A stretch of 35,329 nt of DNA from an uncultured candidate division Zixibacteria bacterium. Lineage in GTDB: Bacteria; Zixibacteria; MSB-5A5; GN15; PGXB01. The translations under genes were made by a program, and so were the position numbers. The DNA is taken from assembly GCA_937867135.1 (NCBI GenBank), contig CALMKK010000370.1, positions 1 to 35,329 on the forward strand, written 5' to 3'. This document shows positions 9,336-24,416 of the stretch, one piece after another; position 1 is the first letter of the stretch; each line of letters starts with the position of its first letter. The notes below the pieces were generated by a model. That model did no database searches, had not been told where the DNA came from, and was given only the letters and a program-made list of their open reading frames with translations.

Positions 9336-12194
9336 CTATTTATCGCGTTCGGCGGTTTTCTTCTTTTCCTTAATGGTCGCCTGAGCGGCCGCCAGACGGG
9401 CAATCGGCACCCGGAACGGCGAACAGGAGACATAATCAAGGCCCATACGATTGCAGAATTCAATCGAATCGGGATCGCCGCCATGCTCGCCGCAGATACC
9501 GATCTTCAAATCCGGCTTTACGGAGCGGCCTCTTTTGGTCCCCATCTCCACCAGTTGTCCGACCCCGGTCTGATCGATGGAGACAAAGGGGTCTTTCGGT
9601 AGAATCCCCTTTTCGACATAGAAACGCAAGAATTTCCCGGCGTCATCGCGCGAGAATCCCATCGTCATCTGGGTCAGGTCATTGGTTCCGAAACTGAAAA
9701 ATTCCGCTTCGGCCGCGATTTCCTCGGCGGTCAGGGCGGCCCGCGGGATTTCAATCATCGTTCCGATAAGATATTCGATTTTGGTCTTGTGCTTGCCGAT
9801 TATTTCATCGGCAATCCGCTTGACGACCTCTTTTTGATTTTTGAATTCATTGATATGCCCCACCAGCGGAATCATTATTTCCGGGACAATATTCTTCTTA
9901 TCCTTGGCGACATGGCAGGCCGCTTCAATTATGGCCCGCACCTGCATTTCCGTTATTTCCGGATAGACAATACCGAGACGGCACCCGCGATGTCCCAGCA
10001 TGGGATTGATTTCTTTCAACTCATCGATTCTCTGCAAGATTTTTCGTTTCCTCGCCAGAATCTCGTCGTAATGTTCATCGGTTTTATCGAGCTCCGAGAT
10101 TTCTTCTTCGACGACTTTTTTGTTGGGCAGGAATTCATGCAACGGCGGGTCGAGAGTCCTTATAGTTACCGGGAGACCGTCCATTACCTCGAACAATCCT
10201 TTAAAGTCACTCTTTTGAAACGGGAGAAGTTTATCCAGGGCCTGCTGACGATCTTCGGTAGTATCCGCCAGAATCATCTCCTGCACGATCGGGAGACGAT
10301 CTTCGGCAAAGAACATATGTTCGGTACGGCAGAGGCCGATTCCCTGAGCTCCGAATTTGCGGGCCTGAATGGCATCGCGCGGGGTATCGGCGTTGGCCCG
10401 GACTTTCAGGCGACGGATTTCATCGGCCCAGCTCATAAACTCGGCGAATTCGCCTGATAGTTCCGGTTCGATGGTCGCCACGGAACCGATCATAACTTCG
10501 CCGGTCGAGCCGTTAATAGTAATTACGTCCTTTTCCTTGAGAATGAGTTTGCCGATCTGCAACTGCTTTTTGGCTTCATTGACCCGCGCCGCTTCGCAAC
10601 CGGCGACACAGCATTTTCCCATACCGCGAGCCACGACCGCGGCATGCGAAGTCATCCCGCCGCGCGATGTAAGAATTCCGGCGGCGGCATGCATCCCCTC
10701 GATATCATCGGGATTGGTTTCCTGTCGGACAAGAATGACCGGGTCTTTGCCCTTGGCGGCCTTCACGGCGGCATCGGCGGTAAAATAAATCGCCCCCGAA
10801 GCGGCTCCCGGCGACGCCGGCAAACCGCGCGCGACCACCTCGAATTCCGCATTCGGATCCAGTCTGGGGTGCAGTAATTGATCCAGTTGCACCGGCTCCA
10901 GACGCATCAGGGCCTCTTCTTTGGTTACCAGCTTCTCCTTCACCATATCGACCGCAATTTTCAGGGCCGCCTGAACGGTGCGTTTGCCGGTGCGCGTTTG
11001 AAGCATGAACAGCTTGCCTTCCTGAATGGTGAATTCGAAATCCTGCACATCGCGATAATGCTTTTCGAGGCGGGTTGTAATATCTTTCAATTGCTTATAA
11101 ACATCAGGCATTTCATCGCCCAGTTGTGTTATCGGCTGCGGTGTCCGAATTCCGGCGACGACATCTTCGCCCTGCGCATTCAATAAATATTCCCCGTAAA
11201 ATTCCTTTTCGCCGGTGGCGGGATTGCGGGTAAAGCCGACGCCGGTGCCCGAGGTATTGCCCATATTGCCATAGACCATCGCCTGGATATTGACCGCCGT
11301 CCCCAGATCGCCGGGAATATTATTCATTCGGCGGTAACTGATGGCCCGGGGGTTATTCCAGGAACGGAATACGGCATCACGGGCCATTCGCAATTGAACC
11401 ATGGGATCATCGGGGAAAGACTCGCCGGTTTTTCTTTTTATAATCGCTTTGTATTTTTTGACAATGTCATTAAGATCTTCGACCTGTAACGAGGAATCCT
11501 GCTTTATTTTTCGTTCTTTCTTCTTCTGTTCGATAATCTCTTCAAATTTCTCCTTATCGATGCCCAACACAACACTGCCGAACATCTGGACAAAGCGGCG
11601 GTAGTTGTCATAGGCAAAACGCTCGTCGCCGGTTTTTTTAATCAAACCGTCAAGCGTTTGCTTGTTAAGGCCCAGATTGAGAATGGTGTCCATCATGCCG
11701 GGCATGGAAAATTTGGCGCCGGAGCGGACCGATACCAGAAGAGGATCATTCGGATCGCCGAATTTGGCTCCGACCAAATCTCCGATTCTATCCACCTGTT
11801 TTTCCAGATCCCGGTCAATATCTTTCGGAATCTGCATTCCGCTCTGATAAAAAATCTTGCAGATTTCGGTTGTCATCGTGAATCCCGGAGGAACCGGTAT
11901 TCCGGCCCGGGTCATTTCGGCCAATCCGGCTCCTTTGCCGCCCAATAAATCGCGCATGGTTCCGTCACCGTCGGCCTTGCCGCCACCGAAAAAATAGTAC
12001 GGCTGATGTTCAATTGAATATGCTCCGGACGGTTTTTCTTTCGCCGCTTTGGATTTTCCGGGGATTTTCGCGTCTTTACTCTTTTTTATCGTCTTGGGTT
12101 CAACTTTTTTAGGCATGCTTTTTTCCTTCGAAACTTTTTTCGGGCCCTTGGCTTTGGCAGATTTTTTTGGGTTATCTTTTTTTGCCGCAATCAT
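9336..12194 (-). CDS. ppdK: Pyruvate, phosphate dikinase with a lysine-rich N-terminal tail
   Basis: This 952-aa enzyme interconverts pyruvate + ATP + Pi and PEP + AMP + PPi. The N-terminal ATP-grasp domain has LLGGKGAGLAEMTRAGIPVP, SVRSGAKFSMPGMMDTILN and TGEKEFYGEYL. The swivelling domain has GGMTSHAAVVARGMG with the phosphorylated His at 517. The C-terminal PEP/pyruvate barrel has GLCRTEHMF, FSFGTNDLTQMTMGFSRDD and ICGEHGGDP with the catalytic Cys at 901. The family is usually near 880 aa; the excess is a tail of about 58 residues rich in Lys, Ala and Pro before the family start near YYFFGGGKADG. No PDRP-type regulatory gene is adjacent. TGGAGG precedes the ATG. It lies behind the terminator of the small basic protein gene; I found no convincing promoter in the 64-nt gap. 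Confidence 0.96.
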   Translation of the reverse strand: MIAAKKDNPKKSAKAKGPKKVSKEKSMPKKVEPKTIKKSKDAKIPGKSKAAKEKPSGAYSIEHQPYYFFGGGKADGDGTMRDLLGGKGAGLAEMTRAGIPVPPGFTMTTEICKIFYQSGMQIPKDIDRDLEKQVDRIGDLVGAKFGDPNDPLLVSVRSGAKFSMPGMMDTILNLGLNKQTLDGLIKKTGDERFAYDNYRRFVQMFGSVVLGIDKEKFEEIIEQKKKERKIKQDSSLQVEDLNDIVKKYKAIIKRKTGESFPDDPMVQLRMARDAVFRSWNNPRAISYRRMNNIPGDLGTAVNIQAMVYGNMGNTSGTGVGFTRNPATGEKEFYGEYLLNAQGEDVVAGIRTPQPITQLGDEMPDVYKQLKDITTRLEKHYRDVQDFEFTIQEGKLFMLQTRTGKRTVQAALKIAVDMVKEKLVTKEEALMRLEPVQLDQLLHPRLDPNAEFEVVARGLPASPGAASGAIYFTADAAVKAAKGKDPVILVRQETNPDDIEGMHAAAGILTSRGGMTSHAAVVARGMGKCCVAGCEAARVNEAKKQLQIGKLILKEKDVITINGSTGEVMIGSVATIEPELSGEFAEFMSWADEIRRLKVRANADTPRDAIQARKFGAQGIGLCRTEHMFFAEDRLPIVQEMILADTTEDRQQALDKLLPFQKSDFKGLFEVMDGLPVTIRTLDPPLHEFLPNKKVVEEEISELDKTDEHYDEILARKRKILQRIDELKEINPMLGHRGCRLGIVYPEITEMQVRAIIEAACHVAKDKKNIVPEIMIPLVGHINEFKNQKEVVKRIADEIIGKHKTKIEYLIGTMIEIPRAALTAEEIAAEAEFFSFGTNDLTQMTMGFSRDDAGKFLRFYVEKGILPKDPFVSIDQTGVGQLVEMGTKRGRSVKPDLKIGICGEHGGDPDSIEFCNRMGLDYVSCSPFRVPIARLAAAQATIKEKKKTAERDK

Positions 12195-12722: not shown

Positions 12723-12751
12723 ATTATACCGATCGCGGTTCCATTTGTCAA
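12723..12751 (-). promoter_or_regulatory. Perfect consensus sigma70 promoter of the small basic protein gene
   Basis: On the minus strand TTGACA (12746-12751), a 17-nt spacer and TATAAT (12723-12728) match the consensus at all 12 positions. The DNA just upstream (12752-12790) is A/T-rich in the manner of an UP element. Transcription would start near 12716, a leader of about 72 nt. The intergenic stretch 12644-12948 otherwise holds only the terminator at 12893-12920; I see no gene in it. Confidence 0.85.
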
Positions 12752-12892: not shown

Positions 12893-12920
12893 AAAAAAGC
12901 CCCGCTTCCAAAGGCGGGGC
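12893..12920 (-). terminator. Rho-independent terminator of the twelve-gene membrane-cassette operon
   Basis: GCCCCGC (12899-12905) and GCGGGGC (12914-12920) form a perfect 7-bp stem with an 8-nt loop. They are followed on the minus strand by TTTTTTCTTT. It begins 29 nt after the last gene of the third cassette, marking the operon end. Confidence 0.85.
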
Positions 12921-12948
12921 TTTGACAATTGACACCGGCAGAAATCTG

Positions 12949-13743
12949 TTATGAACCGGATTGAGCGGCGCCTCTCCTATTCATATATTGAATAAACTCA
13001 TAAATGGAAAGAACAACGAAAATTCCAATTATGAGTATCCAAATAATTAGATAAGAGGACGTGGCGTGCCATGAGGTGGCTGTCCAGTTACCGATGGCCT
13101 GAATCCTTTGCACAAACAGAGAAATACGACCCATAACGGTGTATCCAAAAGAAGCTCCGAATCCAATCATCAGGATACCAATCCCGAATTTGGCCACTCC
13201 GTTGAATAATCCGGTGTGTTCCTTGGAAAAGAAGAAATAGAACAGGGCCGCGATCACCCCGACGAAAATCAACGCCTGAGAATATCCGGCGGTCGAATCA
13301 AGGTAGCCGCTTCCGAAAAAGTTGCCCCAATCGATGGCTTTTCTGATAGAGGCATAAAGCTGCAGGTTAATGCTGGTGCGCATGACCAGAGGAATGGTGA
13401 TGCCGGTACCGATACCGATATAAATGGCAATCGGCCAGCGGCTGATCCAGGCCCATTTGCGTGAAAACCGGGTCCACATCATCACGCCCAATACGGCCGG
13501 GAATATATACCACCAGCTCTTGGCGTCCAGCCAGAGAAAATAGAAATGGCCGTCGCTTAAGAAACTGAATAGATTCGGCACCAGCCCGTTGTGCCAGAGC
13601 AGAATCACGAAATATCCGGCCGAGACTCCGACCATGAGATGCTCGGCAAACTTGTATAGCGGATTATCGCGGTAAAGAAATGAGAAAATGCAGAGCGTCA
13701 AAAAGGCTCCCAGAGTTGTCCAAAGAAATGTACCCATTGGCAT
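12949..13743 (-). CDS. Cassette subunit D3, 6-TM membrane protein (uncharacterised)
   Basis: The 264-aa protein is almost entirely hydrophobic helices. Shared D-family motifs are SFLYRDNPLYKFAEHLMVGV in the first 40 residues, a WISRWPIAIYIG segment in the middle, FFFSKEHTGLFNGVAK and GASFGYTVMGRISLFVQR near the C-terminal third. It then has an extra TM (SSYLIIWILIIGIFVVLSIY) and a basic tail absent from D1 and D2. AGGAGGTGG precedes the ATG. It is the last gene of the operon, 29 nt before a strong terminator. No catalytic motif is recognised. It is presumably an integral core subunit of the same complex as A3-B3-C3. Confidence 0.8.
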   Translation of the reverse strand: MPMGTFLWTTLGAFLTLCIFSFLYRDNPLYKFAEHLMVGVSAGYFVILLWHNGLVPNLFSFLSDGHFYFLWLDAKSWWYIFPAVLGVMMWTRFSRKWAWISRWPIAIYIGIGTGITIPLVMRTSINLQLYASIRKAIDWGNFFGSGYLDSTAGYSQALIFVGVIAALFYFFFSKEHTGLFNGVAKFGIGILMIGFGASFGYTVMGRISLFVQRIQAIGNWTATSWHATSSYLIIWILIIGIFVVLSIYEFIQYMNRRGAAQSGS

Positions 13744-13757
13744 ATTATCCCACCTCC

Positions 13758-14627
13758 TTAACCTTTTCTCGCCTTGCGACGAGCCAGAATGAAACCGATA
13801 TTACCCATGATGATAAAAATAATGATTACCAGATGGGCATAAACCTGAATCCTCATGCCGTCAAGAGCCTCGCCGGGATTGTCGGCCAAGGCTTCGTACT
13901 GGGCCGCCCCCAGCAGACCGCCCATAATCCCGAAAACCTGCCCGGAATTAAGATAGGGATAATAATCGGCCGACATAACGCCGGTCAGACCCAGGGCCAG
14001 CGGGAAATTATAACGGCTCTGACCGTAGGTTATCCACATATCGCTGGAACTTCCCGATGATAATTCCACGACGCATTTGACTTGATCGTAGTTTCTAATG
14101 TTTCTCATCATCGGCAGAGAATCAAGCGGCTTGCCATAATAGTCGGTCGGGAACGGTATCCTGAAATCCTGACCCATGGCCAGAATAATCAGCGCCGGGT
14201 ACGGTTTGTAACCGAGAAAAGTATAATCGACGCCGTCTTCAATTTGTCTTCCTTTATAGAAGACGCCGTTATATGTCCCATCCTGTTTCACCGAATCTGC
14301 GACAGCCTTTATTACCTGATCCACCATGGCCGGCCCGTTTTGCGAGAGGGCCGAGAAAATGACTTTCAGGTGTTTCCGGAAAGCCTGCTCGACAATGGCG
14401 TAGAACATCGGGTGCAATTCTGCCAGAGACGAGGGATCATAATCGACTGCGACAAAAATGACATCATTCGGTTTTAAGGTATCAATAAAATTATAGACCG
14501 CCTTAACCTCCGGTGATTTATTAAGTTTAATCGTAAAAGGTATGGCATAGGTTATTACGCAGACCAGGGCCACAAAGAGGAAAACCCAACGGCGATCCAA
14601 GGTCATTAATCGATCAAATATATTCAT
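13758..14627 (-). CDS. Cassette subunit C3, membrane-anchored protein with extracytoplasmic DYDP domain (uncharacterised)
   Basis: The 289-aa protein has one N-terminal TM (after LDRRW), a globular domain of about 210 residues and one C-terminal TM (HLVIIIFIIMGNIGFIL) followed by ARRKARKG. Positive-inside bias puts the domain outside the cytoplasm. C-family signatures are VAVDYDPSSLAELHPM near 60, GVDYTFLGYK, LDSLPMMRNIRNYD, and YPYLNSGQVFGIMGGLLGAA near 240. The start of the domain (strand, DYDP, helix, strand) looks Rossmann-like but no ligand motif is clear. The ATG at 14627 has GAGGAGGAAG just upstream, overlapping the B3 stop, so translation is coupled; the frame opens further upstream but without a ribosome site. 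Confidence 0.8.
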   Translation of the reverse strand: MNIFDRLMTLDRRWVFLFVALVCVITYAIPFTIKLNKSPEVKAVYNFIDTLKPNDVIFVAVDYDPSSLAELHPMFYAIVEQAFRKHLKVIFSALSQNGPAMVDQVIKAVADSVKQDGTYNGVFYKGRQIEDGVDYTFLGYKPYPALIILAMGQDFRIPFPTDYYGKPLDSLPMMRNIRNYDQVKCVVELSSGSSSDMWITYGQSRYNFPLALGLTGVMSADYYPYLNSGQVFGIMGGLLGAAQYEALADNPGEALDGMRIQVYAHLVIIIFIIMGNIGFILARRKARKG

Positions 14628-14637
14628 AGCTTCCTCC

Positions 14638-15279
14638 TCAATCCCGGCCCAAGTAGGCGCGTTCAATTCCCAACATGACTTTCAAAGCGGTGGCAACCGC
14701 CCCGAGACCCAGGCCGATGATAATGGCCCGCTTGGCCGCCAGATTGGGGACGTTAAGAAGCCATGAAGTTGTCTTCTCAAGGTACACTCCGAAGGTGCCC
14801 AGATAAGGATTGAAACGGAGCATCACGATGAGCGCCGCCAGAAGCAGGACGGTGGCCAGCACGGATCGGGCGCGGAAGGCGCGATAAGCGGCCGATGCAA
14901 TATAGAACGCCAGGAGGGAGAACATGGTGGCCTGAATCGGAATTATGATGTACTGGAACAGGTGAATGAACATATAATTCTCGAGGCCCTCCTGCGTATA
15001 AAAATGCCGTCCGTAGTCAAAGCCAAAGACTATCATGGCCGCCAAACCGAGCAAAGTCGCAATAGGATATTGCCATCCCGGGACGCGCCGACGAATTTTC
15101 TCATATGATACTCTTATCAGCGACCAGATTCCCAGCGCCATCGCGAAGATACCGATGATAATAATCCATTTTAATAGGAATTCATTGGTATCCAGCGAAA
15201 AATCATTTGGAACAAAATACTGGACAATCATCACCAGCGCCAGGGTGAAAACCAGCATTAACGGAACTTGTCTTTTCAT
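14638..15279 (-). CDS. Cassette subunit B3, 6-TM membrane protein (uncharacterised)
   Basis: This 213-aa protein begins MKRQVPLMLVF, like its paralogues B1 (MRREVPLIIT) and B2 (MKRQVPVIIT). About six TM helices are visible. The family core is LLAFYIASAAYRAFRARS after TM4 and the C-terminus NLAAKRAIIIGLGLG followed by MLGIERAYLGRD. The conserved YRAFRA sits at a cytoplasmic TM end and may be a contact site for another subunit. GGGAGG lies 9 nt before the ATG and directly after the A3 stop, indicating coupled translation with A3. Upstream in-frame codons to 15321 overlap A3 and are unsupported. Of the three B proteins this is the most diverged (AAKRAI for AGQRAI). Confidence 0.8.
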   Translation of the reverse strand: MKRQVPLMLVFTLALVMIVQYFVPNDFSLDTNEFLLKWIIIIGIFAMALGIWSLIRVSYEKIRRRVPGWQYPIATLLGLAAMIVFGFDYGRHFYTQEGLENYMFIHLFQYIIIPIQATMFSLLAFYIASAAYRAFRARSVLATVLLLAALIVMLRFNPYLGTFGVYLEKTTSWLLNVPNLAAKRAIIIGLGLGAVATALKVMLGIERAYLGRD

Positions 15280-15295
15280 GAATGGTTTCCTCCCT

Positions 15296-16525
15296 TTAAT
15301 TGCCGGCTTTAAAAAGTTCAAGGAACCAGTTCCAGCGGAATTGCGAGGCGATAATTCCCAGGATGGAAATAACGATAATCGCCGCTTTGCCGTAATCCTG
15401 CGCTTTCAGAGAACCGAGCAAAATCGGTTCGCGGCTCAGATAAGCCGAGGCGGCGTACAGCTCCTCGCCTATGAGAGTATAATCGCAGGCGACCACAAAA
15501 AACGGAATCTGCGCTACCTGATCAGTACCGGAAATCTGCACCGATCCGGCCAGGGCGCCGGTTTCGGCCAGCAGAAGCGATTCGGCGTAAAACGTTCCCA
15601 TATAGATATTGGTCGCCGGCAACTGACGGAGCATAGTGCCGTTTACGGCCGCGACATAGGCAAATTGATTGGAGGTTACATAGTAGACCATGTCGTCGTT
15701 ATAGGCGTCGGGACGTCCGGCATCGAGATAGGCCGTTCGAACCGTCTCCTGTGCGACCGTCATCACGATAGCATCATAGCAGGGAACAATCAGGCCGGTT
15801 TGATATTCCGCCACTTTCTTGGCCACCCGTCCGAGAATGGTGAAGGATGCAATAGTGGCGATATCGGCGGCTGTTCCCAGACCAAGGACATAGAGAATCG
15901 GCTTACCCATTTCGGTGGCACGGCCAATGGCTTCATCAACCGCTTCAATTCCGGCCAAGCGGCGCACAAACAGCTTGGCACCTTTTCGGGCCCTTCGTAT
16001 GAAGAAAATAGTTATGGCGGCAAAACAGAGCACAAAAACCAGGACCAGGGTTCGGCCAACATTATATAATTGTCCGACAGCCTTAACCGGTCCGATCACC
16101 GGAGAATCGGAATAGACATTGCTATCGGCAGTTATGGCCCGGACGATATAATAATAATCGGTGTCGTTCGGCATGAAATCCCGATCATCCGGCTTTCGTC
16201 CGCCCATATCCACATATTCACTGCTGCCGGAGGGAGCCATCCCTTCCCTGAGAACAAAGCCGCTATCGGGGAAGAAAGATCGAAGGAATTTGTATCCCAG
16301 GACCGTTTTTTGCCCGGCACCGTCATCAGCCGAAAGTGTCCATCGCAAAGTTAAGGAATGACCATTATCGTTCGGCGAATCCATGGCGGTAACATTGGTT
16401 GCCGGAGCCGGAGGCGAAATGGCCGGGATGGCGGATGCCTCCACTGTTTTGACACTATCCTGCGCCAATGCCGGGAGAGCCAAAGCCAGCAAGAGACATC
16501 CGAGAATCATTATTTTAAATTTCAT
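15296..16525 (-). CDS. Cassette subunit A3: signal peptide, FnIII domain, TM, conserved cytoplasmic domain (DUF6754-like), TM
   Basis: The 409-aa product starts MKFKIMILGCLLLALALPAL with cleavage likely after LAQ. A fibronectin type III-like domain follows (about 35-145; LRWTLSADDGAGQ, GYKFLRSF, YYYIVRAIT). A TM near 165-185 comes next, then KGAKLFVRRLAG, which marks the cytoplasmic side. The roughly 200-residue core carries DEAIGRATEMGKPILYVLG, DAGRPDAYNDD and ACDYTLIGEELYAASAYLS, then LGSLKAQDYGK and a C-terminal TM. I recall a Pfam entry called DUF6754 for such cores, unverified here. A3 differs from A1 and A2 in the middle of the core (GLGTAADIATIASF for GxxDMDxVQTIAGI). GAGGTG precedes the ATG at 16525; the longer open frame to 16768 runs through D2 and has no ribosome site. 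Confidence 0.82.
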   Translation of the reverse strand: MKFKIMILGCLLLALALPALAQDSVKTVEASAIPAISPPAPATNVTAMDSPNDNGHSLTLRWTLSADDGAGQKTVLGYKFLRSFFPDSGFVLREGMAPSGSSEYVDMGGRKPDDRDFMPNDTDYYYIVRAITADSNVYSDSPVIGPVKAVGQLYNVGRTLVLVFVLCFAAITIFFIRRARKGAKLFVRRLAGIEAVDEAIGRATEMGKPILYVLGLGTAADIATIASFTILGRVAKKVAEYQTGLIVPCYDAIVMTVAQETVRTAYLDAGRPDAYNDDMVYYVTSNQFAYVAAVNGTMLRQLPATNIYMGTFYAESLLLAETGALAGSVQISGTDQVAQIPFFVVACDYTLIGEELYAASAYLSREPILLGSLKAQDYGKAAIIVISILGIIASQFRWNWFLELFKAGN

Positions 16526-16554
16526 ACACACCTCGCAAAGTTGTATATGTGCAC

Positions 16555-17358
16555 TTATTTGACCAGTCCCAGCCAGTCGTGGAAAAGGAAAGTTAACCTT
16601 CCCACCAATAACGAAACACGCCCCATGACGGTGTAACCGAAGGAGGCGCCGAAAGTAATCATCAAAACCCAAATGCCCATCCGGGAGGCATAACCGAAAG
16701 CCCCTTTGTGTTCTTTGGAAAAGAAAAAATAAATCAGGCCGCAAAAGACACCGACAAAAATCACCCAATTGGAAAGGCTCATTGCGAATTGTCCGGTTAT
16801 CGACAACGAAAAATCGGAGAAAAACGGCCCAATCCCTCTCCAGTCGGTTACCAGAGGCACGAAAGTATTGCTCACCTGACTTATAAAATCGGAGCGAAGA
16901 TAACGAATCAAATTAAGCCCGGCGGTGGTCCCGACAATAAAAGCCAGCGACCAGCGCGACAACCAGCCCATCTTGGATGATAATCTCATAAGAAGAAAGA
17001 CGCCGAGAATAAGAGGAATAAAGAAAAAGATATCAAAACCTTTGTACGGAACGCCGAAATAGGTGCATAGGGACGGTGAAATCCGCGGCAAAAGATTTCC
17101 GACGAAGGTTGACCAGAATCCGACCGACATCCAGTAGGCGGCGGAAACTCCCACGAACAGGTGCTCGGCAAATTTGTAATAGGGATTGTCTTTATATAGA
17201 AAGGATAAAATCGAAAGAGTAAGAAAGGCGGCAACCGTTACCAGAAAAGCATCGGTCAAATTATGGCCCGCTTGCGATCCAATAATAATCCAGCTCAGGC
17301 CGAATATCAGGACCGCGGCGGCAAATATTACGATCGACCATATTCTGGAGTTATTCAT
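16555..17358 (-). CDS. Cassette subunit D2, 7-TM membrane protein (uncharacterised)
   Basis: The 267-aa protein has the D-family signatures SILSFLYKDNPYYKFAEHLF, LSRWSLAFIVGTTAG, FFFSKEHKGAFGYASRMGIW and GASFGYTVMGRVSLLVGR. Compared with D1 it has an additional N-terminal TM (SIVIFAAAVLIFGLSWII), giving about seven helices. It ends LFHDWLGLVK, resembling the D1 C-terminus (FIFGDWLRLIR). The ATG is 1 nt past the C2 stop, with GGGGAGAATGAG as the ribosome site inside C2. The next cassette begins 29 nt after its stop, the longest gap inside the array; I see no promoter there. Confidence 0.8.
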   Translation of the reverse strand: MNNSRIWSIVIFAAAVLIFGLSWIIIGSQAGHNLTDAFLVTVAAFLTLSILSFLYKDNPYYKFAEHLFVGVSAAYWMSVGFWSTFVGNLLPRISPSLCTYFGVPYKGFDIFFFIPLILGVFLLMRLSSKMGWLSRWSLAFIVGTTAGLNLIRYLRSDFISQVSNTFVPLVTDWRGIGPFFSDFSLSITGQFAMSLSNWVIFVGVFCGLIYFFFSKEHKGAFGYASRMGIWVLMITFGASFGYTVMGRVSLLVGRLTFLFHDWLGLVK

Positions 17359-17359
17359 C

Positions 17360-18271
17360 TCATTCTCCCCTCGATTTCAAAACGAAGTAAGAAATATTGC
17401 CGAAAATAATAAAAGCCATGATTACCAGATGCGCCATGGTCTGCGGTCCCATCATTTTTATTCCCGGCTGGGGGGTTTCGGCAAAACGGGGATATTTCCG
17501 TTTCAACTCCGATTCGTATTCGGCGGCTCCCTTAATTCCACCCAAAAGACCCATTAATTGATTGGGGTAATAGGGATAAAGCAGCGGGGCGGAAACGGCG
17601 GCGCAACCTCCCACTACCGGAATATGTCCCGGATCTCCGGCAAAAAGGACCCATTCTTTGACACCGGGCAGTCCACCGCCGACCGAAATCAAAAGATCCA
17701 TATCGCGCAGAGAACGGATGCCATTCATAATCGGCAGGGAATCGAGATTGATGCCATTGACATCGGTCAGATACATTTTTCGGATATCGGTAATAATGAC
17801 ATTGAGAACGCCGGTCCCGCCTGCTTTGTACCCCAAATTGACATAATCGACCCCGTTTTTCTTTTCAGGAAATTCCGTTTTTATTATTCGATCAATGGCC
17901 GTCGCCACCATCGGTTGTCCGGTCGCCCACAGGTTCATAAAATAGACGCGGTGTCCCTTGGCCATGGCGTGGCGCACGAAAGCATCGGTCATGGGGTTAA
18001 CTTCGGGAGCCATAGCCGGGTCGTAGTCAAAGGAAATCAAAATTTTCGAGCCGGGCGGAAGATTCTCAATTTTATCGAAAGCGGCTTTGACGATCGGGGT
18101 GGCTTTTTCGGAGAAGGAAATATTGAACAATATCGGGACCGCCACCGCCAAACCCATAAAGAGAAAAATGAAGCGCCGCTCCACATCGCGACCCCTGATA
18201 GATTTGATAAATAGGTACAATAATCCGGCGGCAATTATGGTGAGCGAAATGATAAGGCCCCATTTATTCAT
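17360..18271 (-). CDS. Cassette subunit C2, membrane-anchored protein with extracytoplasmic DYDP domain (uncharacterised)
   Basis: The 303-aa protein has two N-terminal TMs (about 5-23 and 34-50) separated by a basic loop (SIRGRDVERR), then the extracytoplasmic domain and a C-terminal TM (LVIMAFIIFGNISYFVL). Domain motifs are LISFDYDPAMAPEVNPM near 80, GVDYVNLGYKAGGTG, LDSLPIMNGIRSLRDMD, and YPYYPNQLMGLLGGIKGAAE near 240. The ATG at 18271 overlaps the B2 stop by 8 nt and is preceded by GGGGGTGG, which decides the start over the upstream in-frame codons (to 18301). No known fold can be assigned with confidence. Confidence 0.8.
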   Translation of the reverse strand: MNKWGLIISLTIIAAGLLYLFIKSIRGRDVERRFIFLFMGLAVAVPILFNISFSEKATPIVKAAFDKIENLPPGSKILISFDYDPAMAPEVNPMTDAFVRHAMAKGHRVYFMNLWATGQPMVATAIDRIIKTEFPEKKNGVDYVNLGYKAGGTGVLNVIITDIRKMYLTDVNGINLDSLPIMNGIRSLRDMDLLISVGGGLPGVKEWVLFAGDPGHIPVVGGCAAVSAPLLYPYYPNQLMGLLGGIKGAAEYESELKRKYPRFAETPQPGIKMMGPQTMAHLVIMAFIIFGNISYFVLKSRGE

Positions 18272-18941
18272 TATCCACCCCCAGATAGGTCCGCTCGACA
18301 CCGAGAATCAGTCTTAAGGACATGGAAATAACACCGAGGGCGATACCGATCATAATGGCGCGCTGACCGGCCAGATTGGGGGATGACATAATCCAGATGG
18401 CCAGATTGGGAATCTGAAGCAATGAAAAAGATTCGGGAACCCAACCGGTGGCATAGACCCCGAGGGGGGTCCGTCCGAGAAGGATTATGAATGCCGCAAT
18501 CAGCAGGATGGTGGCTTCTTTATTTTTGGCTCGGAAAGCTCGATAGGAGGCCGAGGCCACATAAAATGCCAAAAGAGCATACATGGTCGAGCCGAGCGGA
18601 TAGAAAATATTATAATATAAAGTCTGGAATAATGAGCCGGTCGCGGCGACATCGCCGGTGATACCGTTCGGGTTGGCAATCTTAAACAGCCCCGCCGCCA
18701 GCATGACAATAAATCCGGTCAGAGTGACGGCGGAAAAGGCCCAATCCTTTTGGCGACGATAAATTTTGTTGCCATGGATGCGAATCAGATTGCCACCGCC
18801 CAGGAAGAAAGCAAAGACGGCAATAATATCGAAAAAGACGGAAAAATTCTCGCCGAGCCTCTCGGCCGGCGGGAAGAAGACCGAGACAATCAATACCGCG
18901 CCGACAATGAAGGTTATAATGACCGGGACCTGGCGTTTCAC
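18264..18941 (-). CDS. Cassette subunit B2, 6-TM membrane protein (uncharacterised)
   Basis: This 225-aa protein begins MKRQVPVIITFIVGAVLIVS from a GTG codon with AAGGA 10 nt upstream. About six TMs are visible. The family core is LLAFYVASASYRAFRAKNKE and the C-terminal half has NLAGQRAIMIGIALGV and LILGVERTYLGVDNE. A conserved arginine-bearing segment after TM2 (NLIRIHGNKIYRRQKDW) matches NLMRISADKIYRRRSGW in B1. The gene lies 16 nt behind A2 and overlaps C2. Confidence 0.8.
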   Translation of the reverse strand: MKRQVPVIITFIVGAVLIVSVFFPPAERLGENFSVFFDIIAVFAFFLGGGNLIRIHGNKIYRRQKDWAFSAVTLTGFIVMLAAGLFKIANPNGITGDVAATGSLFQTLYYNIFYPLGSTMYALLAFYVASASYRAFRAKNKEATILLIAAFIILLGRTPLGVYATGWVPESFSLLQIPNLAIWIMSSPNLAGQRAIMIGIALGVISMSLRLILGVERTYLGVDNE

Positions 18942-18957
18942 GATATTTTATTCCTTT

Positions 18958-20157
18958 TCAATTTTGTACCGTAAAAATGTTGGAGAGAAATTGATGAATA
19001 TCCGTAAAGAACTGCCCGCCGCCCATCTGAGAAACGGTGGCGGCCAGTACGCCCAGGATTATGACAATCATGGCCAGAAGCTTTCCCATATCCTGGCCTT
19101 TGAGTGAACCCAATTGCTTCGGTTCATTCGAAAGGTACGCCGAGGCGGCAAAAAGCTCTTCCCCGATCAGGGTATAGTCACAGGCGGCGACAAAAAACGG
19201 CAACTGAGCCGGTTGAGCGGTTCCGGCGATCTGAATAGCCCCGATGGAATTTCCGGTCTCGGCCAAAATCAATGATTCGGCAAAGAAGGCTCCCAGATAG
19301 AAGCAGGTGGCCGGTTTTTGCCGCACCATGATACCATCGACCGCCGCCACATACCCGAACTGCTCGTCCGTAATATAATTTACCATATCATCGCTATAAG
19401 CATCGGGCCGTCCCGCGCCCATATAGGCTTCCCGAATAGTCTCGCGGGCGGTGGTCATCACCAACGAACGGGATACCGGCATATTTATGCGAATATCATA
19501 ATCGGCCACGACCTTAGCCACCCGGCCCAGAAGCGTGATTCCGGCGATGGTTTGTACATCATCCATATCATTAATGCCGGGAACGAAAAGAATGGGGCGT
19601 CCCATTTCGGTGGCGCGACCAATGGCCTCATCAATCGCCTCCAGTCCGGCAATTTTGCGGATAAATAATTTTTTCCCTCGCGTGGCGTGTGAAATGAAAA
19701 AGATGACCGAGCCGCAAAGGAAAAGACCGATAATGAAAAGATTGAGAAGATTCCAGTTAATCAGTTCCATGCGCGGTACAACGGCCGCCGAAATTTCGGA
19801 AAAATAGAGATGGCCGTCCGAGCTAGTCGCCACCTGATAGCGATAGCTTTGACCCTTATAGACTGATTTATCGCGATATGATGAGGTCCCGGCGCTGACA
19901 AAACCGATTGAGATAAAACTGTCAAGAGGATCTTCGGCGCGATAGATTTCGTACCCGCTGATGCTGCCATTTCCTTTATCGTCGGGCGATAACTGCCATG
20001 ACAGTTCAACCGCCTCGCCGCGGTCATATTTAAAATCATAGGCGACAACTTTCGAGGGAGGCGCAATTGACTCCTGTCCGCATAAATAAGCAGGCAGGAG
20101 CAATATTATAAAAAAGGATAATCCGAAACGGCAAAATGGTCGATTGGCTCCGCGCAT
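18958..20157 (-). CDS. Cassette subunit A2: signal peptide, FnIII domain, TM, conserved cytoplasmic domain (DUF6754-like), TM
   Basis: The 399-aa protein has a signal peptide ending near YLCGQ, an FnIII-like domain (about 33-130; VELSWQLSPDDKG, GYEIYRAEDP, YRYQVATSSD) and a TM near 143-163. RGKKLFIRKIAGLEAIDEAI then opens the cytoplasmic core. Core motifs are DMDDVQTIAGITLLGRVAK, GAGRPDAYSDDMV, GAIQIAGTAQPAQLPFFVA and ACDYTLIGEELFAASAYLS, then LGSLKGQDMGK and a C-terminal TM. It is nearest to A1. Start is uncertain: a GTG at 20163 overlaps the D1 stop and has GAGG 8 nt upstream, the ATG at 20157 has AGG 5 nt upstream; either way it is coupled to D1. Confidence 0.82.
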   Translation of the reverse strand: MRGANRPFCRFGLSFFIILLLPAYLCGQESIAPPSKVVAYDFKYDRGEAVELSWQLSPDDKGNGSISGYEIYRAEDPLDSFISIGFVSAGTSSYRDKSVYKGQSYRYQVATSSDGHLYFSEISAAVVPRMELINWNLLNLFIIGLFLCGSVIFFISHATRGKKLFIRKIAGLEAIDEAIGRATEMGRPILFVPGINDMDDVQTIAGITLLGRVAKVVADYDIRINMPVSRSLVMTTARETIREAYMGAGRPDAYSDDMVNYITDEQFGYVAAVDGIMVRQKPATCFYLGAFFAESLILAETGNSIGAIQIAGTAQPAQLPFFVAACDYTLIGEELFAASAYLSNEPKQLGSLKGQDMGKLLAMIVIILGVLAATVSQMGGGQFFTDIHQFLSNIFTVQN

Positions 20158-20159
20158 TG

Positions 20160-20807
20160 TCACCTGATCAGCCTCAGCCAGTCCCCGAAGATGAATTCCA
20201 TGCGGCCGATCAGAAGCGACATTCGGCTCATGACGGTATATCCAAAAGAGGCTCCGAAGGTAATCATAATGGTCCAGATGCCAATTCGGGCCGCCCCACC
20301 AAAAACGCCTTTATGTTCTTTGCTGAAAAAGAAATATACCAATCCCGTAAAGGTTCCGCCGGCGATGACCAGATTGCCGATAGTATCATATAAAGAGGCT
20401 TCAAATATCGGCTGGCCGAATTTAGTGCTGAAAAGAGGCGCCAGAGTGCTTTGGACCTGAAGCATGACGTTGGAGGAAAAATAATTTATGATATAAAGAC
20501 CGGCTGTCGCCCCGACCACAAAAGCCAGCGGCCAGCGGGAGATCCAACCGATCGGCGGAACCAGCCTCAGGAGCATCATAAATCCGAGAACGGCTCCGAC
20601 TAACAGCATGTAGTGGGGATCCGGGCTGGTTACCCCCCTCCAGAAAAGACCGAGTATATTATCATAAAATAGGGTGACAAACCAGTACCCCGCCGAGATT
20701 CCGACAAAAATCGATTCACAGACTTTATACCAGGGATTATCTCTATAAAGGAAGGAGATAATTCCCAAAGTGAGAAAGGCGGCAACCCAGATTCCAAACG
20801 TATCCAT
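20160..20807 (-). CDS. Cassette subunit D1, 6-TM membrane protein (uncharacterised)
   Basis: The 215-aa protein is the shortest D member, with about six TMs and almost no loops. Motifs are ISFLYRDNPWYKVCESIFVG, WISRWPLAFVVGATAGLY, FFFSKEHKGVFGGAAR and GASFGYTVMSRMSLLIGR. The ATG at 20807 lies 1 nt past the C1 stop; AAAGGAGC is 10 nt upstream, inside C1. In-frame codons further upstream (to 20861) overlap C1 and encode a basic, non-homologous stretch, so I reject them. The invariant EH in FSKEH and the GASFGYT glycines are the best candidates for functional residues. Function unknown. Confidence 0.8.
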   Translation of the reverse strand: MDTFGIWVAAFLTLGIISFLYRDNPWYKVCESIFVGISAGYWFVTLFYDNILGLFWRGVTSPDPHYMLLVGAVLGFMMLLRLVPPIGWISRWPLAFVVGATAGLYIINYFSSNVMLQVQSTLAPLFSTKFGQPIFEASLYDTIGNLVIAGGTFTGLVYFFFSKEHKGVFGGAARIGIWTIMITFGASFGYTVMSRMSLLIGRMEFIFGDWLRLIR

Positions 20808-20808
20808 G

Positions 20809-21804
20809 TTATTTCTGCTCCTTTCTCGCTTTATTCTTTTCACCAAGGAAAAAGGCGGCATTTCCGATCAGGATAAAAGCGATTACAATGACATGCGAGA
20901 ATGACTGGGGCAGCATGTAGAAGGTCGCGGTTCCTTCTTTGCCGGTGGCCCGTTCAAATTCGGCAGCGCCGCTCAAACCACCTAAAAGCCCCTTCAATTG
21001 ACCGGCGCGAAGGTACGGGTACATGCCGGTAGCCTGAACGCCGGTGTTTCCCGCGCCCAATTTTAAGCCGTAGCGATCGACGGCCACCTGAATCCATTCC
21101 ACCGTTCCCGGATAGCCGGCCGAAAGATTAAAGGAATAATCGATATTGGAAAAATTCCGGACATCGCGCAGAAGCGGAATCGAATCATATGGAATCCCTC
21201 TGGTATCGCGGGGAAACATCGTCCGAAAATCGGTTCCCATGCGTTGGATGACAAATTCATTTCCGGTTTGAAAGCCGAGATCCACGTAATCTATTCCCCG
21301 CTCCAGTTTTTTCTTCACAATCGAGGAGTCGGCCAGAGCAATCTGAAGGGCCAATTCCGCTTGTTGCGGGCCCTGAGGCCAAAGTCCCATAATAATTATC
21401 TTCAAATCGTGTTCCAGGCAAAGGCGGAAGTATGATTCCGCCATCGGCTGTAGTTCCGGAGCCGAGGCCGGGTCGTAGTCAAATGAAACCAGAACCTTTG
21501 AGCCGGGTTTCAATTGCGCCGTGGAATCATATACGGTTTGCACTTCCGGTGAAACGCGGATCGGCTGATGGATTTTCATGAAAAACGGCAGAACCACCGC
21601 AATGCCGACAAAGAGAAACACAATGCGTCGTCCCACGAAATGGCCGTTAATGGTACGAATAAATATAAATATAAGAGCCAGTAAAATCAGTCCGATAATC
21701 AGGTAAGAAACGGTCGTGGAAAAAACAATCGGTTTAGGCACCAGCAGGAAAATCATCGCCACAATGACAATCAAGGCGCCAAAGAGAAGGAGATCCTGTT
21801 TCAT
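20809..21804 (-). CDS. Cassette subunit C1, membrane-anchored protein with extracytoplasmic DYDP domain (uncharacterised)
   Basis: The 331-aa protein has three N-terminal TMs (about 6-23, 34-53, 66-82), the extracytoplasmic domain (about 85-300) and a C-terminal TM followed by KNKARKEQK. Motifs are VLVSFDYDPASAPELQPM, GIDYVDLGFQTGNE, YDSIPLLRDVRNFSNID and YPYLRAGQLKGLLGGLSGAA. The TM count falls from three in C1 to two in C2 and one in C3, always odd or even in a way that keeps the domain outside if the N-terminus shifts side. The ATG at 21804 has GGGGGTGA a few bases upstream, spanning the B1 end; a TTG two codons earlier is possible. Confidence 0.8.
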   Translation of the reverse strand: MKQDLLLFGALIVIVAMIFLLVPKPIVFSTTVSYLIIGLILLALIFIFIRTINGHFVGRRIVFLFVGIAVVLPFFMKIHQPIRVSPEVQTVYDSTAQLKPGSKVLVSFDYDPASAPELQPMAESYFRLCLEHDLKIIIMGLWPQGPQQAELALQIALADSSIVKKKLERGIDYVDLGFQTGNEFVIQRMGTDFRTMFPRDTRGIPYDSIPLLRDVRNFSNIDYSFNLSAGYPGTVEWIQVAVDRYGLKLGAGNTGVQATGMYPYLRAGQLKGLLGGLSGAAEFERATGKEGTATFYMLPQSFSHVIVIAFILIGNAAFFLGEKNKARKEQK

Positions 21805-21806
21805 AA

Positions 21807-22460
21807 TCAATCACCCCCCAGATAGGACCGTTCAATGCCGAGGATAATGCGCAGGGAGGTCGAGACAATGCCCAGAGCGATGCCAATCATGATGGCCCGC
21901 TGTCCAGCAGAGTTGATAAAACCCATTATCCAGATGGTAATCTTGGAAGGCATCAGGCTCTCGGGCAGATGAATAAAAGAACCGATGGCATCCCCCACCG
22001 GGACCCGTCCAATCATAACGAAGAAAGCGGCCAGAAGAAGCAAAGTGGCTTCCAGATTTCTGGCGCGGAAGGCGCGATAAGACGCCGACGCGACGAAAAA
22101 TGCCAGAAGCGCAAACATCGTCGCCGAAAGAGGGGAATAGACCCAAGTATACAGCCAATCAAAACCGGTTCCCGGATCGCGGAACTGAGAACCGCCGGCA
22201 AAACCGATTGTTGCGATTAATAGAAAAGAAGCGATAATGATTGCGGCGTAGCCCCAACCGGAGCGACGGCGATAAATCTTATCGGCGGAAATGCGCATCA
22301 AGTTCAACGCTCCGAGCCAGATGGCACAGGCTCCAATAATGGCGAACCAATCGGAAAACCACGAATTGAATTGATTGAACGGCGCATGGGGAATAAAATA
22401 TTGAATGACAAAAATTACTCCCACAACGGCCGTAATGATTAAAGGAACTTCTCGTCTCAT
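21807..22460 (-). CDS. Cassette subunit B1, 6-TM membrane protein (uncharacterised)
   Basis: This 217-aa protein starts MRREVPLIITAVVGVIFVIQ. It has about six TMs, the core motif LLAFFVASASYRAFRARNLE, and the C-terminus NSAGQRAIMIGIALGIVSTS followed by ILGIERSYLGGD. GGGAGG overlaps the A1 stop (TAGGGAGG) and lies 8 nt before the ATG at 22460, so A1 and B1 are translationally coupled; the codons upstream to 22481 are not needed. Loops are short, with basic residues after TM2 (KIYRRRSGW) and after TM4. Confidence 0.8.
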   Translation of the reverse strand: MRREVPLIITAVVGVIFVIQYFIPHAPFNQFNSWFSDWFAIIGACAIWLGALNLMRISADKIYRRRSGWGYAAIIIASFLLIATIGFAGGSQFRDPGTGFDWLYTWVYSPLSATMFALLAFFVASASYRAFRARNLEATLLLLAAFFVMIGRVPVGDAIGSFIHLPESLMPSKITIWIMGFINSAGQRAIMIGIALGIVSTSLRIILGIERSYLGGD

Positions 22461-22473
22461 ATTTTTATCCTCC

Positions 22474-23703
22474 CTACCCAATCACCTTGAAATAGTTCGA
22501 CAGCTGGAAAAGATTGAAAGATTCCAGCAGGATACCGACGATAATCGCCACCAGAATAATCGCCTTGCCAATATCCTGTCCTTTTAGAGAACCGAGCAAT
22601 TTCGGTTCACGGGATAAATAGGCCGAGGCGGCAAAAAGCTCTTCGCCGATGAGAGTATAATCGCAGGCGGCCACAAAAAAGGGCAACTGGGAAGGTTGAC
22701 CGGTTCCGGCAATCTGAATGGCGCCGATCGAATTTCCGGTTTCCGACAAAATCAACGACTCGGCGTAAAAATTACCCATAAAAAATATGGTGGCCGGCTT
22801 TTCACGCACGACCATACCATCAATACCGGCCGCATATCCGAATTGATCGTCAGTCAGGTAATGAACCTGCTCATCCCGGAAGGAATCGGGACGGCCGGCC
22901 TTGGTATAAGCCTCTTTGACAATTTCCTTGGCCGTGACCATAACCAGCGAACGACTGACCGGGACTTCAATCCAGGTTTCGTATTCGGCCGCCAATTGTG
23001 CCACCCGGCCCAAAATAGTGATGCCCGCAATAGTTTGGACATTATCCATATCGGAAGTGCCGGGGATAAAGAAAATCTTTTTGCCCATTTCCGTGGCTCG
23101 GCCGACCGCCTCATCGACGGCGTCAAGACCGGCAATTTTACGAATAAACAATTTCTTCCCTGATTTGGCCTGGTTGATATAAAAAATAATAAGACCGCAT
23201 AAGATTATCATGCCGATAAAGACATTGAGGCGACGCATGTCGAACCATTGCGGTTTTGATTCGACCGGCCCGAATATATCTGTTTCGCTGGAAACCTGCC
23301 AGAGCAGTTGCCCGGCTTGACGGGAAGAATTGACGGCCATTATCTTATAATAATACGGAATATTGTCGGCGGCATCATTATCGATATATTGTTGTGAGCC
23401 GGCCGGGACCTCAGCCACTTTCGCAAAACCGCTCTCTTTATTTTGAGAGCGTAAAATCTTATAGGCCGTAACCTTGCCGCCGGGGTGATCATCGATGGAT
23501 GAATCCCAAGTAATTATAACGGCATGGCCGGCATCATTGGGATTATCCATAACAACCAAATTCCTGGGCGCGACCGGCGTAACATCGGGCGGAGGGGTGT
23601 TAAATAGGCCGGCCGTTGAGGAATCAACGGGGGGTTGTGCGGCGGAAAGGGAAGCCCAAAGAAGCAGGGTGAGGCTGAACAGAATCGTGCGGTTTGTAAT
23701 CAC
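22474..23703 (-). CDS. Cassette subunit A1: signal peptide, FnIII domain, TM, conserved cytoplasmic domain (DUF6754-like), TM; first gene of the operon
   Basis: From the GTG at 23703 the product is 409 aa: signal peptide (TILFSLTLLLWASLSAAQ), FnIII-like domain (about 40-140; VIITWDSSIDDHPGG, YKILRSQNKESG, YYYKIMAVN) and a TM near 160-180. KSGKKLFIRKIAGLDAVDEA then opens the cytoplasmic core, with GRATEMGKKIFFIPGTSDMD, KAGRPDSFRDEQ, GAIQIAGTGQPSQLPFFVA and ACDYTLIGEELFAASAYLS, followed by LGSLKGQDIGK and a C-terminal TM. The frame also has an ATG at 23748, but its first 15 codons run through a terminator-like hairpin with eight U, have no ribosome site and would give an overlong signal-peptide N-region. 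The GTG has only a weak GGGA upstream, so the start is not settled. Confidence 0.82.
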   Translation of the reverse strand: MITNRTILFSLTLLLWASLSAAQPPVDSSTAGLFNTPPPDVTPVAPRNLVVMDNPNDAGHAVIITWDSSIDDHPGGKVTAYKILRSQNKESGFAKVAEVPAGSQQYIDNDAADNIPYYYKIMAVNSSRQAGQLLWQVSSETDIFGPVESKPQWFDMRRLNVFIGMIILCGLIIFYINQAKSGKKLFIRKIAGLDAVDEAVGRATEMGKKIFFIPGTSDMDNVQTIAGITILGRVAQLAAEYETWIEVPVSRSLVMVTAKEIVKEAYTKAGRPDSFRDEQVHYLTDDQFGYAAGIDGMVVREKPATIFFMGNFYAESLILSETGNSIGAIQIAGTGQPSQLPFFVAACDYTLIGEELFAASAYLSREPKLLGSLKGQDIGKAIILVAIIVGILLESFNLFQLSNYFKVIG

Positions 23704-23716
23704 GCTTCCCACTTTC

Positions 23717-23755
23717 AAAAAAAATCTCACAGACGAATTGAACGTCATCTGTGAG
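23717..23755 (-). terminator. Terminator/attenuator-like hairpin across the 5' end of the cassette operon
   Basis: On the minus strand CTCACAGA (23755-23748) and TCTGTGAG (23733-23726) are perfect 8-bp arms with a 14-nt loop, followed by A and eight T (23724-23717). It lies about 100 nt downstream of the predicted promoter and only 14 nt before the GTG start of A1. The alternative ATG at 23748 begins on the last base of the first arm. It could stop transcription leaking from the motility operon or act as an attenuator of the cassette operon. Confidence 0.65.
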
Positions 23756-23860
23756 GTTGGTTCAAAATATCCTGTTTTCGCGATATGTATATTTCATATT
23801 TTCATATATTGATGGCGATTAATAAAAAGCCTGCCGCCACCTCATATAAATCGGTTGTGA

Positions 23861-23889
23861 AATTTAACGAGATGTTCCTCAAGTGTCAA
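23861..23889 (-). promoter_or_regulatory. Candidate promoter of the membrane-cassette operon
   Basis: A perfect TTGACA (23884-23889, minus strand) is followed after 17 nt by TAAATT (23861-23866; 4 of 6). Start of transcription would be near 23854, giving a leader of 106 nt to the upstream ATG or about 151 nt to the GTG of A1. It lies in the 245-nt gap after the last response-regulator gene. That gap also has a weak hairpin at about 23903-23930 (minus strand CGGCAG with CTGTCCG, then four T) that could end the upstream operon. Confidence 0.55.
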
Positions 23890-23993: not shown

Positions 23994-24416
23994 TTAACGA
24001 GAATCGGCTTTGGATTGAACCATTTGAAAGCTTTTTTGACTGGATAAGAAACGCCAATAGGCCCGTTCGATAATCAGGGAGACTTCCGGGCCCTTGAAAG
24101 GTTTGGTGATATACTCATCGGCCCCGAGACTCAGCGCTTCTTTCACGGAACCGGCGTCGCCGTAACCGGTCATCATAATTACGCCGACATCGGGGAACGA
24201 TTTTTTCACGACCTGAAGTAATTCAAAACCGTCCATTTCCGGCATTCTTATATCGGAAACAACCAGATCGACATGACTGGATTTCAAATATTCCAGCGCC
24301 TCGCGTCCGCTTCCGACCGCTTTTATGCTGTATCCCTTGCGTTGGAGGAGCTGTTCGAGAACGCTCCGCACCAGAGGCTCATCGTCGACTATCAGAATTG
24401 TTACGCTGGTTTTCAT
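23994..24416 (-). CDS. Single-domain response regulator (CheY-like receiver) 3
   Basis: This 140-aa protein is one receiver domain with a short C-terminal helix. The acidic pocket is D11/D12 (ILIVDDEP), phosphoacceptor D55 (LVVSDIRMPEMDG), T83 (IMMTGYGD) and K105 (YITKPF). All phosphotransfer residues are present. There is no output domain, so it acts as a phosphate sink, relay intermediate or protein-binding switch. Its start overlaps the preceding receiver gene by 4 nt, and GGTGGA precedes the ATG. It is the last gene of the motility operon. Confidence 0.9.
   Translation of the reverse strand: MKTSVTILIVDDEPLVRSVLEQLLQRKGYSIKAVGSGREALEYLKSSHVDLVVSDIRMPEMDGFELLQVVKKSFPDVGVIMMTGYGDAGSVKEALSLGADEYITKPFKGPEVSLIIERAYWRFLSSQKSFQMVQSKADSR

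Follow-up and report, generated by a model that had tools for sequence, protein, structure and literature searches.

The pyrBI attenuator of Escherichia coli encodes a longer leader peptide than the leader described here and has UTP-sensitive pause sites that set the distance between ribosome and polymerase; in the ampC attenuator of the same species, the leader is shorter and its frame is a minimal start-stop one. According to the pyrBI passages of PMC5021804 (after Roland et al. 1988), the pyrBI leader ORF, pyrL, extends as far as, or into, an intrinsic terminator, and a closely following ribosome blocks the hairpin, an antiterminator fold being unneeded. The ampC attenuator comprises its own promoter, a short leader, and a terminator hairpin directly before the gene, and its likely switch is ribosome occupancy, not special codons; for this attenuator, PMC9241650 cites Jaurin et al. 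(1981). The leader of an operon that begins with the gene A1, found in a 35,329-nt stretch of DNA (the window) from an uncultured candidate division Zixibacteria bacterium, appears to be built along the same lines. Unlike at pyrBI, however, neither a conserved U-rich pause run nor a link to pyrimidines was seen; unlike ampC, the A1 leader has a frame of 5-26 codons in family members and precedes an unrelated operon. The likeness to both is presented as resemblance, not membership.

More distantly, attenuators of the trp/his kind and antibiotic-inducible ones (vmlR, msrD, and bmrCD) also place a leader and a terminator before an operon, most of them with a leader ORF, but they work through alternative folds together with regulatory codons or stalling peptides, and the A1 leader showed neither. 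Conserved premature terminators, as treated in the portions of Naville and Gautheret (2010; PMC2965389) consulted, are Rho-independent, lie in the 5′ UTRs of orthologous genes, and have a fast-evolving sensing part, all of which resembles the present case, whereas those portions make no mention of a DUF6754 operon and the present element is limited to one Zixibacteria family. Attenuators as such are already known, and the A1 leader is a new case: a clear comparative example of a leader terminator that would gate an uncharacterized DUF6754 operon. The candidate phylum is represented here solely by metagenome-assembled genomes, and its regulation is not easily studied.

As listed in Table 1, the operon consists of 12 genes on the minus strand (12949-23703) arranged as three repeats of a four-gene cassette. 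The A genes carry DUF6754, for which a text search returned no paper within the library searched; the B, C, and D genes have no confident Pfam family, D3 having a PTS EIIC-like match below threshold. The three spacings of the DUF6754 genes in the sister genome G001 are nearly identical, and the relatives are metagenome-assembled genomes labelled Candidatus Zixiibacteriota. On the minus strand, the order is promoter, 105 nt, hairpin, one A, eight T, 13 nt, and the GTG of A1 at 23703. The A1 start may alternatively be TTG 23718, which overlaps the U-run, since TTG starts are common among A1 orthologues. As a separate observation, a Shine-Dalgarno sequence is mostly missing from A1 in the window's own family, where the gene starts directly after the U-run (23703-23718 in the window), and orthologues elsewhere often have a TTG start preceded by a purine-rich site.

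Table 1. Features of the A1 operon and its leader (positions in the window)
Feature	Position	Strand	Remarks
Response regulator (motility/chemotaxis)	24416-23994	minus	104 nt before promoter
-35 hexamer TTGACA of the A1 operon promoter	23884-23889	minus	(G)CTTGAC(A/T) in orthologue leaders
-10 hexamer TAAATT	23861-23866	minus	spacer 17 nt; TA(G/A/C)ATT order-wide
Predicted transcript start	about 23854	minus	inferred from spacing alone
First leader hairpin, GGTGGCG ... CGCCATC	23811-23841	minus	predicted
Candidate leader ORF	23762-23797	minus	ATG AAA TAT ... TTT TGA; MKYTYRENRIF
Terminator hairpin (predicted), 11 bp, loop of 8	23726-23755	minus	arms 23755-23745 and 23736-23726
U-run of eight, completing the predicted intrinsic terminator	23717-23724	minus	5-9 T in all 11 own-family hairpins
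A1, first gene, signal-peptide protein with DUF6754 (PF20539)	22474-23703	minus	GTG 23703 start shown
Remaining operon, cassettes B1-C1-D1, A2-B2-C2-D2, A3-B3-C3-D3	12949-22481	minus	
A2, DUF6754	18958-20163	minus	
A3, DUF6754	15296-16768	minus	
Ordinary terminator closing the operon	12896-12923	minus	26 nt past last stop codon, in contrast to the leader terminator

The sequence-only reading of this stretch had proposed a TTGACA promoter candidate at 23861-23889 and a perfect 8-bp hairpin with eight U about 100 nt downstream, just before the GTG, and both are present. Promoter-type sites in the scan, at 37 against 22.9 expected in 20 kb, were alone not clearly beyond chance. The A1 promoter is taken as real because of its conservation: among leaders taken from 68 orthologues of A1 within the order, 13 from the window's own family (f1, 13 genomes, several of them incomplete) and 55 from elsewhere, a promoter of the TTGAC(A/T)-16/18-TAnnTT type precedes A1 in 60 (13/13 and 47/55, respectively). 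The hairpin arms, CTCACAGATGA...TCGTCTGTGAG (23755-23726), form eight Watson-Crick pairs and extend by U-G, G-C, and A-U to 11 pairs, folding at -16.8 kcal/mol (z = -5.6; none of 200 shuffles folded as well). With a stable GC-containing stem and a U run directly after it, the hairpin has the sequence features of an intrinsic (Rho-independent) terminator and is predicted to terminate transcription. It is oriented to A1 only, no T-run following it on the opposite strand, and a search for the exact hairpin across G000 and G001 returned a single occurrence per genome, the A1 leader site. A GC hairpin of varying sequence occupies the position of the first leader hairpin in most own-family leaders.

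Comparison of the leader in related genomes, which had been suggested as a check, found stem and U-run kept with the operon in 11/13 f1 leaders and, by scan, in 0/55 leaders outside the family. Eight of the f1 hairpins came from a strict terminator scan (shuffles expect 0.03), and the other three (G010, G013, and G005), with bulges or long loops, were picked by eye in aligned leader folds, making 11 a looser figure than eight. In all 11 leaders the stem begins 95-110 nt from the -10 element and the U-run ends 0-21 nt before the A1 start. When the 11 hairpins were aligned, 89.5% of cells were paired, compared with 26-46% when the partners were slid. Three stem pairs vary on both sides, for example A-U/G-U/G-C at one and C-G/A-U at another, and the covariation score was equalled in 2/500 shuffles, which serve as a guide only, the sequences being related. 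In the A1 protein tree, f1 forms one clade (support 0.999) with the hairpin in both main branches; the hairpin is therefore ancestral to the family. It is absent from genus g5 (G006 and G007), which is most simply accounted for by loss, and from the remainder of the order, indicating that the operon can do without it. Outside f1, 27/47 leaders carry a second promoter-like element, (T/G)GA(C/T)(A/G) - 15 to 17 nt - CGT(T/C), against 2.9 expected from shuffles. This element sits between the main promoter and A1, e.g., in L057 (G029), L060 (G032), L062 (G016), and L082 (G031), resembles a promoter of the ECF-sigma type, and is missing from nearly all leaders of the hairpin-bearing family.

The conserved 3′ arm, GUGAGG, holds a Shine-Dalgarno-like GAGG with its complement in the 5′ arm, and other Shine-Dalgarno signals of A1 are weak in most own-family members, as would be expected if there were no terminator in vivo and the hairpin affected A1 translation, by hiding that GAGG, or RNA stability. 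However, G002 and G009 have lost GAGG and keep both stem and U-run, in most members GAGG is too distant from where A1 likely starts, and the U-run, needed by termination only, directly follows the stem in all 11. Hiding of the Shine-Dalgarno sequence was rejected on the first of these grounds, and we regard the broader explanation through translation or stability as quite improbable.

To which operon the predicted terminator belongs was judged from its surroundings. The response regulator before the promoter in the window runs in the same direction as A1 and ends at 23994; nearer to it, no strong terminator with a U-run was observed, and the hairpin would also stop readthrough from that gene. 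The sequence-only reading had offered, as the simpler view, a plain terminator of the upstream motility operon with a promoter in front of it by accident. Across the hairpin-bearing genomes, however, the upstream neighbor is mostly different or divergent: a response regulator in G000/G001, a cold-shock-like protein in G003/G004/G011, and, in divergent orientation, a HutI-like gene in G002 and an RRM protein, nearest to A1, in G005, G009, G013, and G014 (names assigned by reading the translations instead of by a family search). Where the neighbor is divergent, as in five genomes, no gene of annotated size reads toward the hairpin from close upstream, leaving the A1 promoter as the only evident source of polymerase. 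Furthermore, in 400 kb of the sister genome G001, used as the background for ordinary terminators, intrinsic terminators mostly begin 20-40 nt past stop codons, whereas the window hairpin begins about 238 nt past the response-regulator stop codon, and the A1 promoter is conserved order-wide. A plain terminator with an accidental promoter thus fails as the main explanation and is very improbable; as the sole function, it is refuted by the divergent neighbors. The hairpin may still have a side role as terminator of the upstream operon in the window's own genus, much as the ampC attenuator overlaps the neighboring frd operon.

Because the upstream gene is divergent in five genomes, the hairpin is assigned to the A1 operon and not merely to the motility genes. 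Its place is downstream of the operon's own promoter and upstream of the first gene, and, within f1, it is kept with the operon regardless of the upstream gene. These data argue strongly that it is a leader terminator, i.e., an attenuator, of the A1 operon. The attenuator layout put forward in the sequence-only reading is therefore upheld in that promoter and hairpin travel with A1 across the family while the upstream gene changes, but the opening device suggested with it is not. That device was an in-frame ATG at the base of the first arm, from which a starting ribosome would open the hairpin. ATG 23748 is indeed in frame with A1; its first letter, however, is the final base of the 8-bp arm, on the loop side, and it is unconserved, reading ATA in sister G001 and other letters elsewhere, and it was rejected as an opener.

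A better candidate is an ATG at a conserved position 32-43 nt upstream of the hairpin. The word ATGA occurs 43-32 nt before the stem in 8/8 hairpin-bearing genera (shuffle mean 3.3; 0/200 reach 8), and it stood out in a scan of all short leader words, the best four-letter word in shuffles averaging 4.8 and never reaching 8. An ATG lies 50-80 nt after the -10 element in 11/11 hairpin-bearing leaders, in 0/2 hairpin-less f1 leaders (G006/G007), and in 20/47 others. The context of the leader ATG resembles that of real G001 starts in 9/11 cases, also when set against AT-matched ATGs (mean rank 0.14), and A follows it directly in all 11; a Shine-Dalgarno sequence precedes it in 1/11, compared with 43% of G001 genes. 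The window's leader ORF has 11 codons, with its stop codon 6 nt ahead of the stem. Read from the conserved ATG, the frame comes within 6 nt of the hairpin or enters it in 9/11 leaders, which is not beyond chance by itself, and ends 16-18 nt short of it in G009 and G005; some ATG frame reaches the hairpin in 11/11, against 8.7 expected by chance. No conservation of the leader peptide was found, G000/G001 differing by four amino-acid changes and one silent change and G003/G004 being similar. What is shared with pyrBI and ampC is a putative leader start codon at a conserved position upstream of the hairpin, although the conserved ATGA could serve something other than translation.

Comparison across the orthologues establishes, as features of the sequence, the promoter, the hairpin, their spacing, the ATGA position, and the independence from the upstream gene. 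For the way these parts would work together, we favor a premature terminator opened by a ribosome on the leader ORF, in the manner of E. coli pyrBI or ampC, with a probability of roughly 0.45. Polymerase from the A1 promoter would synthesize some 137 nt of leader and by default stop at the U-run before A1. The short ORF would open about 40 nt before the hairpin, and a ribosome translating it would reach or overlap the hairpin, in the window sitting on the stop codon 6 nt before the stem. By keeping the stem unfolded, the ribosome would let polymerase continue into the 12-gene operon; prompt translation would thereby allow transcription to pass, and failed leader translation would cut it off. 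Such a gate would require neither an alternative RNA fold nor a specific peptide. Ribosome occlusion was chosen because of the ATGA position, the start-like context, the window stop codon 6 nt from the stem, and a precedent in E. coli, where bringing a translated stop codon closer to a terminator, from a distance of 28 bp to one of 5 bp, lowered termination from about 90% to <10%, an effect that depends on translation and is gone beyond about 27 nt (PMC4824070). Conditional readthrough, termination, translation of the leader ORF, and the ribosome as switch are all inferred here from sequence comparison.

If the ribosome reading is true, the small pyrBI/ampC group of attenuators would extend beyond Proteobacteria. 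Because attenuators of this type do not require an RNA switch, their signature in the sequence is slight, and conservation of start-codon position could then reveal them. One might go further and suppose that the start-codon position alone is selected, not the peptide, regulatory codons, or an RNA switch, making the leader a peptide-independent gauge of translation initiation; this is a speculative proposal, and rather unlikely. Equally tentative is its extension, that the gauge gates a long operon of uncharacterized membrane proteins and was gained once in one family, replacing the second promoter-like element of the sister families.

Other ways of controlling the terminator were weighed against ribosome occlusion. 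Pairing of arm 1 with the leader, sought in the 11 hairpin-bearing leaders as an antiterminator, gave no shared element and did not exceed shuffles in most members; in the window alone there is a TGAGGT/ACCTCA match (duplex -8.7 kcal/mol, 1% of shuffles as good), which the relatives do not share. Curated and permissive Rfam searches returned chance matches only. A riboswitch or a trp-type attenuator was rejected, there being no antiterminator fold, no Rfam match above threshold, and no regulatory codon run. Processive antitermination of the RfaH/LoaP type was likewise rejected: each of the 22 genomes with a match has one NusG and no NusG paralogue was found among them.

These results also weigh on two further explanations. 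A dedicated regulator, either an RNA-binding protein or a metabolite, might act on the leader or on the conserved CCUCAC/GUGAGG stem, whose outer letters are kept (CUC and GA invariant) more than pairing alone requires, and the first hairpin is present in the leader of most members. Nevertheless, the Rfam, arm-pairing, and NusG results run counter to it, no RfaH/LoaP-type factor being detectable, and the leader sequence from promoter to hairpin is poorly conserved; such a regulator is distinctly unlikely. Alternatively, the attenuator may be fixed, stopping a constant fraction of transcripts and so setting the operon level with no regulated opening, possibly with release of an approximately 137-nt leader RNA. 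This would agree with a terminator that is conserved with promoter and operon yet has no conserved alternative fold or peptide, but a fixed gate has no need of the ATGA, whose fixed distance is conserved more than chance would give and which is absent along with the hairpin. We consider a fixed attenuator unlikely, though deserving of some weight beside ribosome occlusion.

Elsewhere in the window, a perfect 12/12 promoter, TTGACA-17-TATAAT, lies at 12723-12751 on the minus strand, upstream of a PEP-synthase/PPDK-like gene (9336-12194).
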